Program-made: the position numbers and the translations under genes
Part shown: piece by piece, positions 96 through 19,900 of the stretch
How the letters are laid out: each line of letters begins with the position of its first letter
Position numbering within the stretch: the stretch's first letter is position 1
Virus record (IMG/VR): IMGVR_UViG_3300034190_001470
Coordinates: 1 to 22,613 of that record
From: a virus
Direction: 5' to 3' (one strand)
Length of the DNA: 22,613 bases
Notes under the pieces: model-generated
What the model saw: the letters and a program-made list of their open reading frames with translations, nothing else
Databases searched by the model: none
Told to the model about the DNA's origin: nothing

Positions 96-101
96 GGGTG
101 C

Positions 102-149
102 GACAACTTGTCACAGAGACATTCATTAACTGATCATTTAGGGTCTAAA
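102..149. promoter_or_regulatory. Two short palindromes in the 96-150 intergenic gap
   Basis: The gap before the first complete gene contains GACAA-C-TTGTC at 102-112 and TTTAG-GGT-CTAAA at 137-149. The second sits over the presumed ribosome-binding site (AGGG at 140-143) of the gene starting at 151. Inverted repeats at this position could be operator sites or could modulate translation. No convincing -35/-10 pair is visible. The second palindrome recurs almost exactly inside the DNA polymerase gene at 4584-4596. The functional reading is inference. Confidence 0.25.
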
Positions 150-972: not shown

Positions 973-1099
973 AGGATTGTTAGGAGTAGTAATAATGGCG
1001 GCATCGACCGGTCTCGTCATGATCAACCCGCTGCTGTCAATCCCTGTCTTTATTCTAGGCTTTTGGATGATGATGTCTACGGACTGGGACGAACTCTAA
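965..1099 (+). CDS. 44-aa integral membrane microprotein
   Basis: Encodes 44 aa. ATG at 965 overlaps the previous stop region by 8 bases and the gene ends with TAA at 1097-1099. After a short basic start (MIKG) the sequence is almost wholly hydrophobic from residue 5 to 37, enough for one long or two short membrane helices with an NP turn near residues 21-22. It ends with a polar acidic tail, STDWDEL. The topology suggests a small inner-membrane protein. Phage proteins of this type include holin-like, antiholin or host-modifying factors, but nothing here is diagnostic. Its stop codon is part of a perfect ribosome-binding sequence for a following mini-ORF. Confidence 0.6.
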   Translation: MIKGLLGVVIMAASTGLVMINPLLSIPVFILGFWMMMSTDWDEL

Positions 1100-1111
1100 G
1101 GAGGCCACGAA

Positions 1112-1135
1112 GTGGCAGATTACCGACAACCATAA
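1112..1135 (+). CDS. Seven-codon leader mini-ORF with perfect ribosome-binding site
   Basis: TAAGGAGG at 1097-1104 is the full complement of the 16S anti-Shine-Dalgarno sequence. It lies 7 bases before a GTG at 1112 that opens the ORF VADYRQP followed by TAA at 1133-1135. The start codon is inside the small hairpin GCCAC-GAA-GTGGC (1104-1116), which would also cover the last base of the ribosome-binding site. The arrangement resembles leader peptides that couple translation to the folding of a downstream RNA. It may instead be a ribosome-docking site with no peptide product. Confidence 0.3.
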   Translation: MADYRQP

Positions 1136-1268
1136 ACATACGAGACAGTAGAGAAGAGAAAGGAAAACAGTAGTAGAAATTACTGTTTGTCTCAAACCCG
1201 ATACATAGATATGTACTCGCCGCGACGACCCCCTCACAATAGGACAGATTGTCGCACCCCTGAAACCC

Positions 1269-1311
1269 GCAGAAATCCGGCGATTAACACTGATGTTGTC
1301 GCCGGTTCTGC
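1269..1311. other. Strong 43-nt hairpin, 17 paired bases
   Basis: The two arms are GCAGAA (1269-1274) with TTCTGC (1306-1311), CCGGCGA (1277-1283) with TCGCCGG (1299-1305), and AACA (1286-1289) with TGTT (1294-1297) around a 4-base loop. The only interruptions are AT at 1275-1276, TT at 1284-1285 and G at 1298. No T-run follows either arm, so it is not a standard intrinsic terminator on either strand. Possible roles are an origin hairpin, an RNase III cleavage site or a protein-binding structure. Confidence 0.7.
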
Positions 1312-1359
1312 ACCACCGATAGGGCCGATCTGGTACTATCGGGAACGAAAGGACATCTC

Positions 1360-1388
1360 TTGACGACCACGAATCAGCAGAGTATGAT
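1360..1388 (+). promoter_or_regulatory. Near-consensus sigma70-type promoter
   Basis: TTGACG at 1360-1365 and TATGAT at 1383-1388 each match five of six consensus bases and are separated by exactly 17 bp. Transcription would begin near 1395, shortly before the gene at 1421, and could read into the primase-helicase and polymerase genes. It is the best host-type promoter I found and sits where the small-gene cluster gives way to the replication module, immediately after the hairpin array. Confidence 0.6.
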
Positions 1389-1420
1389 GCGTAACCACCA
1401 ATCAATTGCAGGATTTCATC

Positions 1421-1597
1421 ATGGCAAAGTGGAAACAGTTGAACGCATCGAGGGTCTTCCCGGACTTCAAGCCGGTACGCAACCCTCGATGGCTCTGGAA
1501 TCGTTACGGAAAGTTCTACGATCCCTTGGTCTGGGTAAAGGTGGACGGGAAAGTCCACGACAAGTCCAGTCCGAAGGCAGGACTCTCCAGCCTGTAG
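1421..1597 (+). CDS. Small Trp-rich basic protein of unknown function
   Basis: Encodes 58 aa (MAKWKQLNASRVFPDF...). I preferred the ATG at 1421 to one at 1406 because GGA at 1411-1413 is 7 bases upstream and because MAKWKQ is a natural start. Trp and Tyr are frequent (NPRWLWNRYGKFYDPLVWVKV) and the protein is strongly basic, which suits nucleic-acid or protein binding by a compact domain. It would be the first gene after the promoter at 1360-1388. No family is recognised. The 105 bases after it (1598-1702) hold no gene or clear signal that I can see. Confidence 0.55.
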   Translation: MAKWKQLNASRVFPDFKPVRNPRWLWNRYGKFYDPLVWVKVDGKVHDKSSPKAGLSSL

Positions 1598-1702
1598 CTG
1601 TCCTTAGTAAATGTGACCGTTCCGAAGAGCGTCTGTAGCACGAGCGGTTCCATATCGGATTACTCCCCTTTTAATCTTTGTCCACAAGTTGGAGCCACCA
1701 CG

Positions 1703-1897
1703 GTGACCCCCGACATTGAAGACATCAAACACGAGTGTGGCAGTACTAAATGTCATGGCAATTCTCCTTGCCCCAAATATAATGCTGCACTGCAACAAAG
1801 ACAAGACGATGCCAGAAATCATAGCCATTCCACTTGCAGTTGTACTACTCGTCGGCGCGATTGCATTCACCCTAATCTTCTTCCGAGGCAACGATGA
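1703..1897 (+). CDS. Possible Cys-rich small protein overlapping a membrane microprotein
   Basis: GTG at 1703 has GGAG at 1691-1694, 8 bases upstream, and opens a 64-aa frame beginning MTPDIEDIKHECGSTKCHG. The first 40 residues look protein-like, with Cys at 11, 16 and 22 that might form a small metal site. The last 25 (Arg/Cys/Ser/Thr-rich) look like a shadow of the membrane microprotein read in another frame at 1809-1901. Either this gene is real and overlaps completely, or only one of the two is. The stop overlaps the primase-helicase start. Confidence 0.3.
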   Translation: MTPDIEDIKHECGSTKCHGNSPCPKYNAALQQRQDDARNHSHSTCSCTTRRRDCIHPNLLPRQR

Positions 1898-1901
1898 GTG
1901 A
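1809..1901 (+). CDS. 30-aa single-span membrane microprotein
   Basis: Encodes MPEIIAIPLAVVLLVGAIAF followed by TLIFFRGNDE: one continuous hydrophobic helix of about 22 residues with a short charged tail, the standard design of a single-pass membrane microprotein. The same frame is open upstream to ATG 1716, but that extension is less convincing. The ATG at 1809 has only a weak purine-rich stretch before it (AAGACAAGACG). It overlaps the primase-helicase start by 8 bases, which suggests translational coupling. Function unknown. Confidence 0.5.
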   Translation: MPEIIAIPLAVVLLVGAIAFTLIFFRGNDE

Positions 1902-3573
1902 TTCAGAACCAGTCAAGACACACATCCCATGTCACCTCTGCGGATCGTCCGACGCAGGTGCCATCTACACAGACGGACACTTCCACTGTTTTAGCTGTCG
2001 TCAGACCGAACACGCATACGACGGCGAACATGCACACGAGGTAGTAAATCACATGAAACCAACACACCCGAAGCCCCGGCTAGTTCACGACTCCTCCCGT
2101 CTGGATGAGATGCTGAACGGCCTGACCTGTAGCATCCTTGCCGACCGCAAGATTTCGGCAGCAGTTGTCGAGAAGTTCGGAGTCCGCATCGACAACTTGA
2201 ACGACCGACACCTCTACCCGTACCGCAACGGTGATGGTGCCCTGATCGGGGTAAAGACACGGTACTCCAGAAACAAGACGTTCTCATGGGACGGTAACGG
2301 ACAGACAGTCCTGTTCGGGATGCACCTGTTCCCCGGCGGTGGTAAGACCATCACCATCTGCGAGGGCGAGATCGACACGATGGCCGCACACCAGATGAAC
2401 GGGTCCAAGTGGCCGACAGTCGGAATGCCATCAGCCACCGGGATCAAGGCAGTCAAGGACAACCTCGAATACCTGAACACGTTCGAGGAAATCTATCTGG
2501 CCTTCGACAACGACGATGCAGGTAAACGTGCCACCGAGGACGTTGCCAACCTGTTCGAGCCGAACAAGTGTAAGGTAGTCAACCTCGCCCCACTGAAGGA
2601 TGTCGGTGAGTATCTGGCCGAGGGTAAGGTCGAGGACTACACCCGACGCTGGTGGAACGCGCAGCCGTTCACCCCGGAGGGTATCGTCCGTGGGTCGTCA
2701 CTCTGGGACTTGGTGTCCACCGACGACGACACCCCGTCCGTATCGTATCCGTACGACGGCCTACAGGAGATGACCTACGGCATCCGTGTCGGTGAACTGG
2801 TCACTCTCACAGCCGGATCAGGACTGGGCAAGTCAGCCGTCGTCCGTGAACTGATGTACCACCTGCTCAACGTGACCGAGGACAACATCGGCTGTATGTT
2901 CCTTGAGGAATCCACGAAGCGGTCAGCCCTCGGCTTCATGTCGATGGCTGCAAACAAGCCGCTGCATCTACCCGACACTGAGAAGACGCCGGAGGAACTG
3001 CGTCTGGCATTCGATCAGACACTGGGCACCGACCGCATCTTCCTCTACGACAGCTTCGGGTCGAACTCTCTGGAGAATATCATCGGCAGGGTTCGTCACA
3101 TGGCGAAGGCCATGGACTGCAAGTACATCGTCCTCGACCACCTGTCCATCGTTGTCTCCAGTCAGGAGAACGGCGACGAGCGTAAGGCCATTGACGAGAT
3201 CGTCACCAAGCTGCGTATGCTGGTACAGGAACTACGCATCAGTCTCATCATGGTGTCGCACCTCCGTCGTCCGCAGGGTCAGGGTCATGAGGATGGTGCA
3301 GCGACTAGCCTGTCGCAGCTTCGAGGCTCTGCCGCCATCGCCCAGCTATCCGATATGGTCATCGGGCTGGAGCGTAACGGACAGCACGAGAACGAGGTGA
3401 TGCGAAACACGACGACGGTCCGTGTCCTGAAGAACCGATTCTCCGGCATCACCGGACCTGCCACCTACCTGTACTACGACAAGACGACAGGACGCTTGAC
3501 AGAGACTGGTGAGCCGGGGCAGGATGACACACCCGTCTTCGACAACAGCCCACTGGCGGACTTCACATCATGA
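1894..3573 (+). CDS. T7-like bifunctional primase-helicase
   Basis: The 559-aa product, close to the 566 aa of T7 gp4, unwinds the fork and makes lagging-strand primers. Domains in order: a zinc-binding domain with C13/C16 and C32/C35; a TOPRIM primase core with CEGEID (156-161) and the acidic DNDD (205-208); a linker near 250-285; and a RecA-like DnaB-family helicase with Walker A GSGLGKS (308-314), Walker B region YIVLDHLSIV (411-420), the sensor-like SHLRRP (455-460), and VLKNRFSG (511-518), whose Arg is at the arginine-finger position of the T7 family. It begins in the tail of the membrane microprotein gene and ends in an ATGA overlap with an HNH endonuclease gene. All key residues that I can recognise are present, so it should be active. 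It would work with the polymerase at 4021 and the SSB at 6540. Confidence 0.95.
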   Translation: MSDSEPVKTHIPCHLCGSSDAGAIYTDGHFHCFSCRQTEHAYDGEHAHEVVNHMKPTHPKPRLVHDSSRLDEMLNGLTCSILADRKISAAVVEKFGVRIDNLNDRHLYPYRNGDGALIGVKTRYSRNKTFSWDGNGQTVLFGMHLFPGGGKTITICEGEIDTMAAHQMNGSKWPTVGMPSATGIKAVKDNLEYLNTFEEIYLAFDNDDAGKRATEDVANLFEPNKCKVVNLAPLKDVGEYLAEGKVEDYTRRWWNAQPFTPEGIVRGSSLWDLVSTDDDTPSVSYPYDGLQEMTYGIRVGELVTLTAGSGLGKSAVVRELMYHLLNVTEDNIGCMFLEESTKRSALGFMSMAANKPLHLPDTEKTPEELRLAFDQTLGTDRIFLYDSFGSNSLENIIGRVRHMAKAMDCKYIVLDHLSIVVSSQENGDERKAIDEIVTKLRMLVQELRISLIMVSHLRRPQGQGHEDGAATSLSQLRGSAAIAQLSDMVIGLERNGQHENEVMRNTTTVRVLKNRFSGITGPATYLYYDKTTGRLTETGEPGQDDTPVFDNSPLADFTS

Positions 3574-16960: not shown

Positions 16961-19900
16961 CTATTCGAAGATAACCTCGGGAAGATCGTCCGGGTCTGCC
17001 ATGTTCAGGTTCTTGTTATCGTAGGCTCGTTCAATCTTACGGAACAGGCTCCGCAATTCACCTGTATTTAATTCAGGATTATTTCTCCTGATTTCCTTCC
17101 AAAACTCATTATTGGTGGACAGGCGCTTCACAGCTGATCGGTCGCGCAACAGACGGCCCCGCTCCCGACGAGATCGTGGCATTGCCGACTTCAGATCGGG
17201 GTCGCGCATCACCTTTCGGGCAGCAGACTTACTACCTGCCAGTACTTCGAGATCATCGAACAGGTCGGCGATGTTGGCCTGAATACCCACCTGACGTCCC
17301 AGTTCTTCCTCGTACTCACGGGCTATACGCTCATAATCAAGGCGGTCTGTGTAGCTTGGGTCGCGCAGCAGCTGTCCGATACCCCGACGATATGACGACC
17401 ATCCTGTGTTCAGATCACGAGACTGGTTGCTAAGTGCAAAGCCGGTCGTCGAATCCACCTCGAAGCGACGTTCCGGGGCTAGGGTGACCAGACCGGTCCG
17501 GTAGAAGTATTCCCCGACGTCTTCAATCGAGTCGATCTTCTTACCTTCTGACCCGAAATACCGTGGGGAGACAACCCGCTCAAGGTTCGGGTCGAGTACG
17601 TCTGCCTCGGTTACCAGTTCTCGGGCCATCTTGGCAAAACCGGGTTCAAGTATTCGATACGTCTTGCCGAGGTAATACTCTGCTGTACGACTATCGCCTT
17701 CTGTAGTCGCCATAATTGATCTATAGAGTGACTGTCCCGCCTCAGAGGCCAGAGACTGATCGACGAATGGGCTGACGACGTCCCCGATAGCGCCGGGAAG
17801 TGTCTCAGCAAGGGCATCCTCTACCGGTTTTCCTGATGCAGCAGCAGCCATCACCCGGTTCGCGATCTGACTGATCGGGTTGAACGGATTGATATAACCC
17901 AGATCACGGTATGTGATGGTACGTTTCCCGTCTTCATCTTCCTCGACCCCGGTGATTACAATCGGGTTGTATTTGTCGAACGACAGGTAGTCTTTCAGAG
18001 AGGAGGCAATCTCATCGTACCCGTTCAGTTCGTTCCATGCGTAGGCACCCCCGACGAGACCGGCGTTGAGTGACGACAGAGTGGCAAGGCGCTGTGCCCC
18101 GGACCTGACCAGTGCGTCGTTACCCACGTTAAATCCATCGACCATCTCCTGATGGCCCATCTTCATGATGTTATAGGCATTGCGGAAAACCTCGGCTTGG
18201 AAGGCCATAAAGTTACCGATTACCGGAACACCTCGAAAATACTCTGTAAAGACGGGGACACGACTGTATGTCGGCATGACGTTGAGGGCTTTCCGGGCTG
18301 CAAGTTCGTCCAGAACTGCATTGTCCGTCATGCCGACTGTACGTTCCCCGATGATGTTACCGTCCCCATCACGGACCTGTCGGGTAAACTTCTGTCGTAC
18401 CTGATCCCGGAGAACATCCTTATAGGCATCGTCTGACGCTTTCCAGATGTCCTCCATCTTTTTCCGTTCACCGGCAAAAGCCATAAATTTACCTACCTCG
18501 TCCGTTGCCTGATAGGCACGACGAGCAGCGTCACCAACCTTACCAGCCTTGAGAACTTTCTCGGCAACTTTTCTGACATTGTTGGCATTCGTCGTTCCCC
18601 GTTCAAACTCGGGACCAAGACGATTCATAATCTGCCGGAATGTAACGCCTGTGTCGCTGATACCGAGGTCGGTCATCAGTTGTCTGAACTGCTCTCGTTC
18701 CTCTTTGGTGCCTGTGCTGAGACGTTTTAGATAGTCAGCAGCACCCCGGTAATTACCGCTGCCAAACACCGACATACCCATACCGCCGATGTTGCGGATA
18801 TGACCGACAGGATTGTAGCCGGTCTTCCCCAGCTTAATTGCACCCTGAAGGAACGACGTTGCCTCCAGCATATTGTTAATCATCCGAAGCGGTCCCTCTT
18901 CGGCAGAGAACCGGGCGGCAGGGTTGGCGACAACCTTGTTAATTCGGTCGCCCAGTGTCTTGGGTACATAGAAAGAGAAGTCTTCTGACCGCATCCCGCG
19001 CTTCATCGGGAGGACTTTGCTACTGGAGATTGGGACCAGATCGTCAGCGTCCAGCAGCTGACCTGTCTTGTCACGGAACTTTGTCTGTGCCTCACCGGCA
19101 TTCTTTGCGTAGACGGCCAGATTGTCGGCCTCCAGCACACGACCAATTTCATTGGCTCGGTGAATCTGTGTGATAGGCTCGACAATGCCCTCGACAGAGC
19201 GGAATATGCGGGTGCCTACCTTGGCCTGTTCTTTACCGAGGAACCGTTCCACTGTAGGTTCAAGTTTTTGTCTCTTCTTGAGTATACTGCCCCCGTAGTC
19301 GTACTTACCAACACGACCCTCGTACAGATCACGTGCCCGTCGGCGCAGCTGCGACATCACCGCATCGTCAGGATCGAGAGTACGGAACGCAGCATCGTCA
19401 AAGCCAAAGTCTCTGGCGTATCCTACTTTTACATTGTCGGGGGCGTATGCGTCTTTCTGAATTGTCTTGTACAGGTCTAGGACAGCGTCTGGATTTTGCT
19501 TGATGAACTTATCAAAACTGACTGGGCGACGTTTGCCCAGTTCGAACGCATCATATGTCCGACGCAGATAGGTCGGATTGAAGCCCTCGGCTGTGCTGTC
19601 AAAGAGAGATTTGATACCGGGGCGAAGACCCTCGACTTCGTTGGCATAGTTCTGCGATTCCCGAATTATCTTACGACCATCTTCAAGAAGATTGGCGAGT
19701 TCGTCGCCATACTTATCACGGACAGTTTTAAGTTCATTGGCGCGACCTTCCGCTGCCCTGTTAATTAGGTTCAGCGTGTCCATGTCATTCTCAGCTTGAA
19801 TCTTCTGATACGCCGCGTTCCTGTTAAAGCCTTTCTCAATGTCGGCAGCACGTTTGAGGAGATCATTTTGCCGTGCCTCGGCAATCTCAGAGATTCGGAC

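Follow-up and report, generated by a model that had tools for sequence, protein, structure and literature searches.

We identified a conserved non-coding element at 1117..1348 on the plus strand of the virus record IMGVR_UViG_3300034190_001470, the whole of which (22,613 bases) is referred to here as the window. The element is structured on that strand and occurs in single copy; its bounds are those of the conserved block and of the replaced genes around it, and it is the best-folding segment of the record. At a probability of about 45%, we consider it to be an intercistronic control region, a structured transcript at the boundary between early and replication genes, that is also a recombination joint. 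Its position, the plus-strand folding bias, the persistence of its hairpins and the closeness of the last hairpin (P5) to the start of the next gene favor a control RNA, and sequence that is alike at the element while the neighboring genes differ argues for a homology joint. Among the candidates raised in the earlier note on this DNA, a structured regulatory RNA is thus supported by strand bias, kept hairpins and position, whereas a replication origin is less favored.

The hairpin array is genuine. Six inverted repeats had been reported at 1097-1342, and the sequence contains each of these stems: 1104-1108/1112-1116, 1142-1146/1189-1193 enclosing 1165-1172/1181-1188, 1202-1206/1211-1215, 1222-1226/1251-1255, 1269-1284/1299-1311 and 1316-1322/1336-1342. 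The claim that they exceed random expectation held against dinucleotide shuffles, with the plus strand of 1097-1342 reaching an MFE of -77.0 kcal/mol versus -53.7 +/- 4.4 (z -5.3; 0 of 200 shuffles as good). Folded as RNA, the minus strand is modest (z -2.1). With DNA parameters the plus and minus strands score z -5.5 and -4.8, and strength on both strands is expected of inverted repeats. When the whole record was scanned in 240-nt segments (mean z -0.47, sd 1.14), the segment starting at 1121 ranked first of 280 (z -5.0); the element ranks 2 of 287 segments in the related genome G002 and 9 of 357 in G001. A search of the element for T-run terminators was negative, as the reported lack of T-runs implied, and an intrinsic terminator was rejected. 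Although all six stems exist in the window, the first (1104-1116) is absent from relatives, so we take the conserved block as about 1117-1348. The gap is also not the only long one among the plus-strand genes, as had been stated, since another ORF-poor gap of 255 nt lies at 1639-1893.

Within the block, the fold gives five hairpins on the plus strand. P1, at 1142..1193, pairs GAGAC with GTCTC and encloses AAACAGTA/TACTGTTT; P2 is a short hairpin, TACAT/ATGTA, at 1202..1215; P3, at 1222..1255, pairs GCGAC with GTCGC around an invariant core; the middle hairpin P4, GCAGAA-CCGGCGAT/TCGCCGG-TTCTGC at 1269..1311, has a z of -6.5 alone; and the 3′ hairpin P5, CCGATAG-GCC/GGT-CTATCGG at 1316..1342, is also seen in relatives, several of which have TAGTACC-GATCT-GGTACTA as its inner part. 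A T-box-like TGGTAC at P5 was considered and rejected, as it is not conserved in L044/L051/L063 and has no Rfam match. No tRNA or tmRNA was found in four large relatives, and that reading was dropped. A coding origin of the conservation was rejected as well, because the minus-strand ORF at 1055-1558 is not kept and its homologue in G003 has just 66 aa. Rfam gave no family match for the whole window or for five relatives, and nothing for 1050-1420 even at E up to 10; no named phage carries the block.

The block at about 1117-1348 recurs in at least 10 distinct related viral contigs. Relatives from viral_contigs match it at 72-97% identity, full-length homologues have nhmmer bit scores of 140-238, and pattern scans added diverged versions (L051/L044, L065, L063, L055 and L045). 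In the larger records the element is always single per genome and always lies between variable small plus-strand genes and the primase operon, and downstream of 1348 many relatives carry different genes instead. None of the named phages shares the DNA, and nhmmer searches upstream of primases with 45-54% identity found no homologues. The gap upstream of the HTVC115P primase was rejected as a homologue, being AT-rich, not unusual in folding (z -1.25) and devoid of the core; L145, an IMG/VR contig found with the P5 pattern, was set aside as a chance match with no similarity to phage genes or the window.

In 12 of 12 homologues the plus strand is more structured than the minus strand, with z from -1.6 to -5.1 on the former and from +0.3 to -2.5 on the latter. 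Segment by segment, the hairpins around the core mostly hold position while their own sequences are replaced. P1 is present with unrelated sequence in L046/L055, L065 and L051/L044 (z -1.8 to -4.3); in L045 and L064 it is weak or missing. P2 is absent from the L046/L055, L065 and L051/L044 versions, and the lower stem of P3 is lost in L065, L051 and L044. The place of P4 is taken by other hairpins in L045/L064, L055, L063 and L065, with no significant hairpin at that place in L051/L044. Covariation, proposed earlier as a check, was weak: in the column alignment, for which P1 and P4 are too diverged, 1 of 11 pairs in P5 and 0 of 8 in P3 covary, neither above shuffles, although 78% of cells in P5 are paired and positional conservation of the hairpins is good. 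Hairpin positions are thus mostly kept, yet classical covariation support is thin.

Only one part of the element is invariant, the 20-mer core CAATAGGACARATTGTCGCA at 1237..1256 on the plus strand, which is single copy in the window and identical in every homologue; the homologues were partly collected by the core pattern, and those found via the primase gene carry the core too. Within it, an AGGA is followed at 1249-1263 by the four-codon frame TTG TCG CAC CCC TGA, the in-frame stop of which is kept in most homologues but not in L065; a leader peptide here is a possible, weak reading. The right part of the core is half of a dyad, TGYGACA-N3-TGTCGCA, that the left half does not fit, and the core runs opposite to most early dyad copies. 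A second copy in the window, TGTGACAAGTTGTCGCA, lies in the early block at 99..115 on the minus strand and has a counterpart at G003 6061. G001, G002 and G003 each carry the dyad, with up to 2 mismatches, in their divergent early intergenic region, and counts on both strands are 4-10 per genome versus shuffled means of 0.3-1.2, most of them in control regions. It is also multi-copy in contigs with a terminase related to those of HTVC027P/HTVC023P-type pelagiphages, and was not seen in those parts of the named phages HTVC023P and HTVC027P that were examined. The strict dyad occurs in at least 120 bacterial-genome contigs versus about 7 expected, an estimate based on the length of the pattern and the size of the collection; among the matches listed, nearly all are from beta- and gammaproteobacteria and many carry a TATAAT-like hexamer at a distance of about 16 bp. 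A SciP-type site is among the readings set aside.

Two further arrangements of the dyad were observed. In two genomes (L131:293-359; G001 reversed 19151-19218) the divergent early region contains pairs of dyads spaced 50-51 bp, which look as if they were bound cooperatively. Intergenic stretches of pelagiphage-like contigs hold dyad arrays (L052:5669-6500, L047:4364-7180, L150:661 onward) accompanied by CCCCCTTCGGGGG hairpins and by sites that resemble NrdR boxes (TACTACATCTAGTG) and DnaA boxes (GTGGATAAC); these are possibly decoys or a phage use of host regulators.

Pairwise identity between homologues shows sharp breaks at both the core and the element ends. Expressed for the 5′ half, the 3′ half and the 300 nt downstream, with a random baseline of about 0.5, identities are 0.96/0.78/0.52 for the window and L045, 0.75/1.00/0.97 for L045 and L064, 0.70/0.99/0.97 for L131 and L133, and 0.97/0.71/0.54 for L133 and L055. 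These switches suggest that the 5′ and 3′ halves have been exchanged along with their neighbor genes, and by sequence comparison the element marks a boundary where flanking genes reassort. Some of the joints might be metagenome assembly chimeras at the shared core, although one and the same combination is found in the contigs L046 and L061. The Phage_integrase and Resolvase families had no match in nine records, with positive controls, making homologous exchange at the conserved stretch the simpler reading.

The switch at the core, its status as the sole invariant part, and the recurrence of the dyad in early control regions, pelagiphage-like contigs and bacterial genomes would also suit a DNA regulatory or recombination site, in which the core alone matters, as a site bound by a host or phage protein, and the hairpins are incidental or DNA cruciforms. 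We regard this as unlikely. It leaves unexplained why plus-strand-biased hairpins are kept around the core, the exact core is absent from the collection of bacterial and archaeal genomes, its left half is degenerate, and the two commonest recombinase families were not found.

The plus-strand genes of the window include those for a primase/helicase, endonuclease VII, a family A DNA polymerase, a Cas4-type exonuclease, thymidylate synthase and ribonucleotide reductase, and are followed by minus-strand genes, one of them for a DNA ejection protein. The first recognizable replication gene is that of the DNA primase/helicase at 1894..3573 on the plus strand (phrog_239, E 3e-176). Its product is at most 49% identical to those of named phages, the nearest being Pelagibacter HTVC115P and HTVC104P and Roseobacter CRP phages, suggesting by its replication genes an uncultured phage related to pelagiphages and roseophages. 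The first gene after the element, at 1360..1638 on the plus strand (TTG at 1360, or ATG at 1384/1387), encodes a small conserved protein; related proteins in G001, G003 and G004 are 85-92% identical among themselves, and other relatives have a different gene first. The next gene starts about 10-22 nt past P5 in L131, L055, L063 and L051, mostly with an SD-like sequence.

No promoter-like site was found inside 1117-1348 on the plus strand. Directly after the element, at 1360-1388 of the window, lies a promoter-like TTGACG-17-TATGAT that alone is not above chance, and a TTGACA-16-TATCCT occupies a similar position in L045/L064. A T7-type promoter reading of TCACAATAGGACA was rejected, as it is single copy and a search of the relatives for a T7-type RNA polymerase, run without a positive control, gave no match. 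In two genomes (G001 reversed 24186-24615 and 25495-25623; L128:18555-18729) the DNA downstream of the element contains low-complexity repeats, 12-bp GGTCTGGGACCG and 6-bp GTCTGG, that are very strongly folded, with z to -10.4 in G001.

Position upstream of the primase/helicase and polymerase, together with inverted repeats that are strong on both strands as DNA, could instead mean that replication starts beside the replication genes, at a DNA or R-loop structure made up of hairpins and core. The GC-skew check named in the earlier note gave no consistent turn: cumulative skew is lowest near the element in G002, but there is no turn at it in G001, G003, G004 or the window. Such an origin is doubtful on other counts too, because the element is not AT-rich, the plus-strand folding bias points to RNA, and the region has no iterons, just two direct repeats of 10-12 nt, each in two copies. 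G001 and G003 instead have iteron-like tandem repeats 4-7 kb away, in the divergent early region. Early-region tandem repeats were recorded in G001 (= L125-L127), reversed 18903-19068, and at L131:168-235, with 38-bp CGCCAGAGCAGTGACCAAAACTATATATATTATTCATA x4.5 and AGAACAAAACGTGAACATAGGCTGGG x2.6; they are a candidate origin or early promoter array.

Two readings that stay closer to RNA are quite improbable. A small RNA that acts in trans, is about 230 nt long and has its own promoter would agree with the compact independent fold, single copy and negative Rfam searches, but promoter and terminator were not found, in several relatives P5 lies directly against the start of the next gene, and the two halves are exchangeable. 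An RNase III or RNase E processing site between early and replication mRNAs, which would be a special case of our best explanation, might account for the near-continuous helix of P4, the long interrupted helix of P1 and helix sequence that changes freely while pairing stays, but it leaves the invariant core and the wide variation in hairpin lengths unexplained.

Returning to the control region, we propose that the element acts within the plus-strand transcript. P1, P4 and P5 would protect or process the end of the early mRNA and the start of the replication mRNA, and may set translation of the next gene. The core with its half dyad could be bound by a regulator common to the early control region, and the element would also serve as a homology joint through which early and accessory genes are exchanged. 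A bolder form of this, which we put forward tentatively and consider improbable, is a phage leader RNA of a new class, with an invariant 20-nt core, exchangeable hairpin arms and a bound early-region regulator, perhaps a host global regulator. If this were true, early-gene sets could be swapped whole while the replication genes stay under the same control. The element adds an uncatalogued conserved structured non-coding unit at a strategic place in uncultured aquatic phages, a specific example of the way in which phages may exchange accessory genes at a regulatory boundary, and, through the common dyad, a testable link from phage control regions to a proteobacterial genome motif.

Several known systems resemble the element in part. 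The hairpins that process T7 early and middle mRNAs are RNase III sites and likewise lie between early and replication genes; unlike in T7, the relatives gave no T7-type RNA polymerase match in the search without a positive control. HK022 put RNA and lambda nut are antitermination sites, structured RNAs in a phage operon which, like the element, have a conserved core. However, the element lies about 5 kb into the plus-strand gene block and not at the start of an early operon, no boxA was seen by eye, and it lacks the two-hairpin pattern of put. PeSL (promoter early stem-loop) cassettes of T4-like phages are described as mediating gene shuffling between related phages (cited in PMC4503421). Like them, the element is a short non-coding unit of stem-loops, conserved and set between variable genes, at which identity switches, but it has no T-run terminator and no recognizable early promoter inside, its core occurs once per genome where PeSLs have many copies, it consists of several hairpins plus an invariant core, and it belongs to an unrelated phage group. 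As the promoter-terminator and multi-copy features of PeSLs are missing, we assign it broadly to phage intergenic regulatory elements, with no named family. RegA/PrrA-type sites of proteobacteria take the exact form GCGNC-N5-GNCGC. A degenerate GCG inverted repeat has been proposed as the RegA/PrrA binding site (PMC4263372), and the dyad GCGAC-N5-GTCGC resembles it. Unlike such sites, with their two inverted half-sites, the core pairs a good GTCGC with a degenerate AGGAC; elsewhere in these genomes several copies are complete dyads, and we take the resemblance of the dyad to RegA/PrrA sites as a lead.
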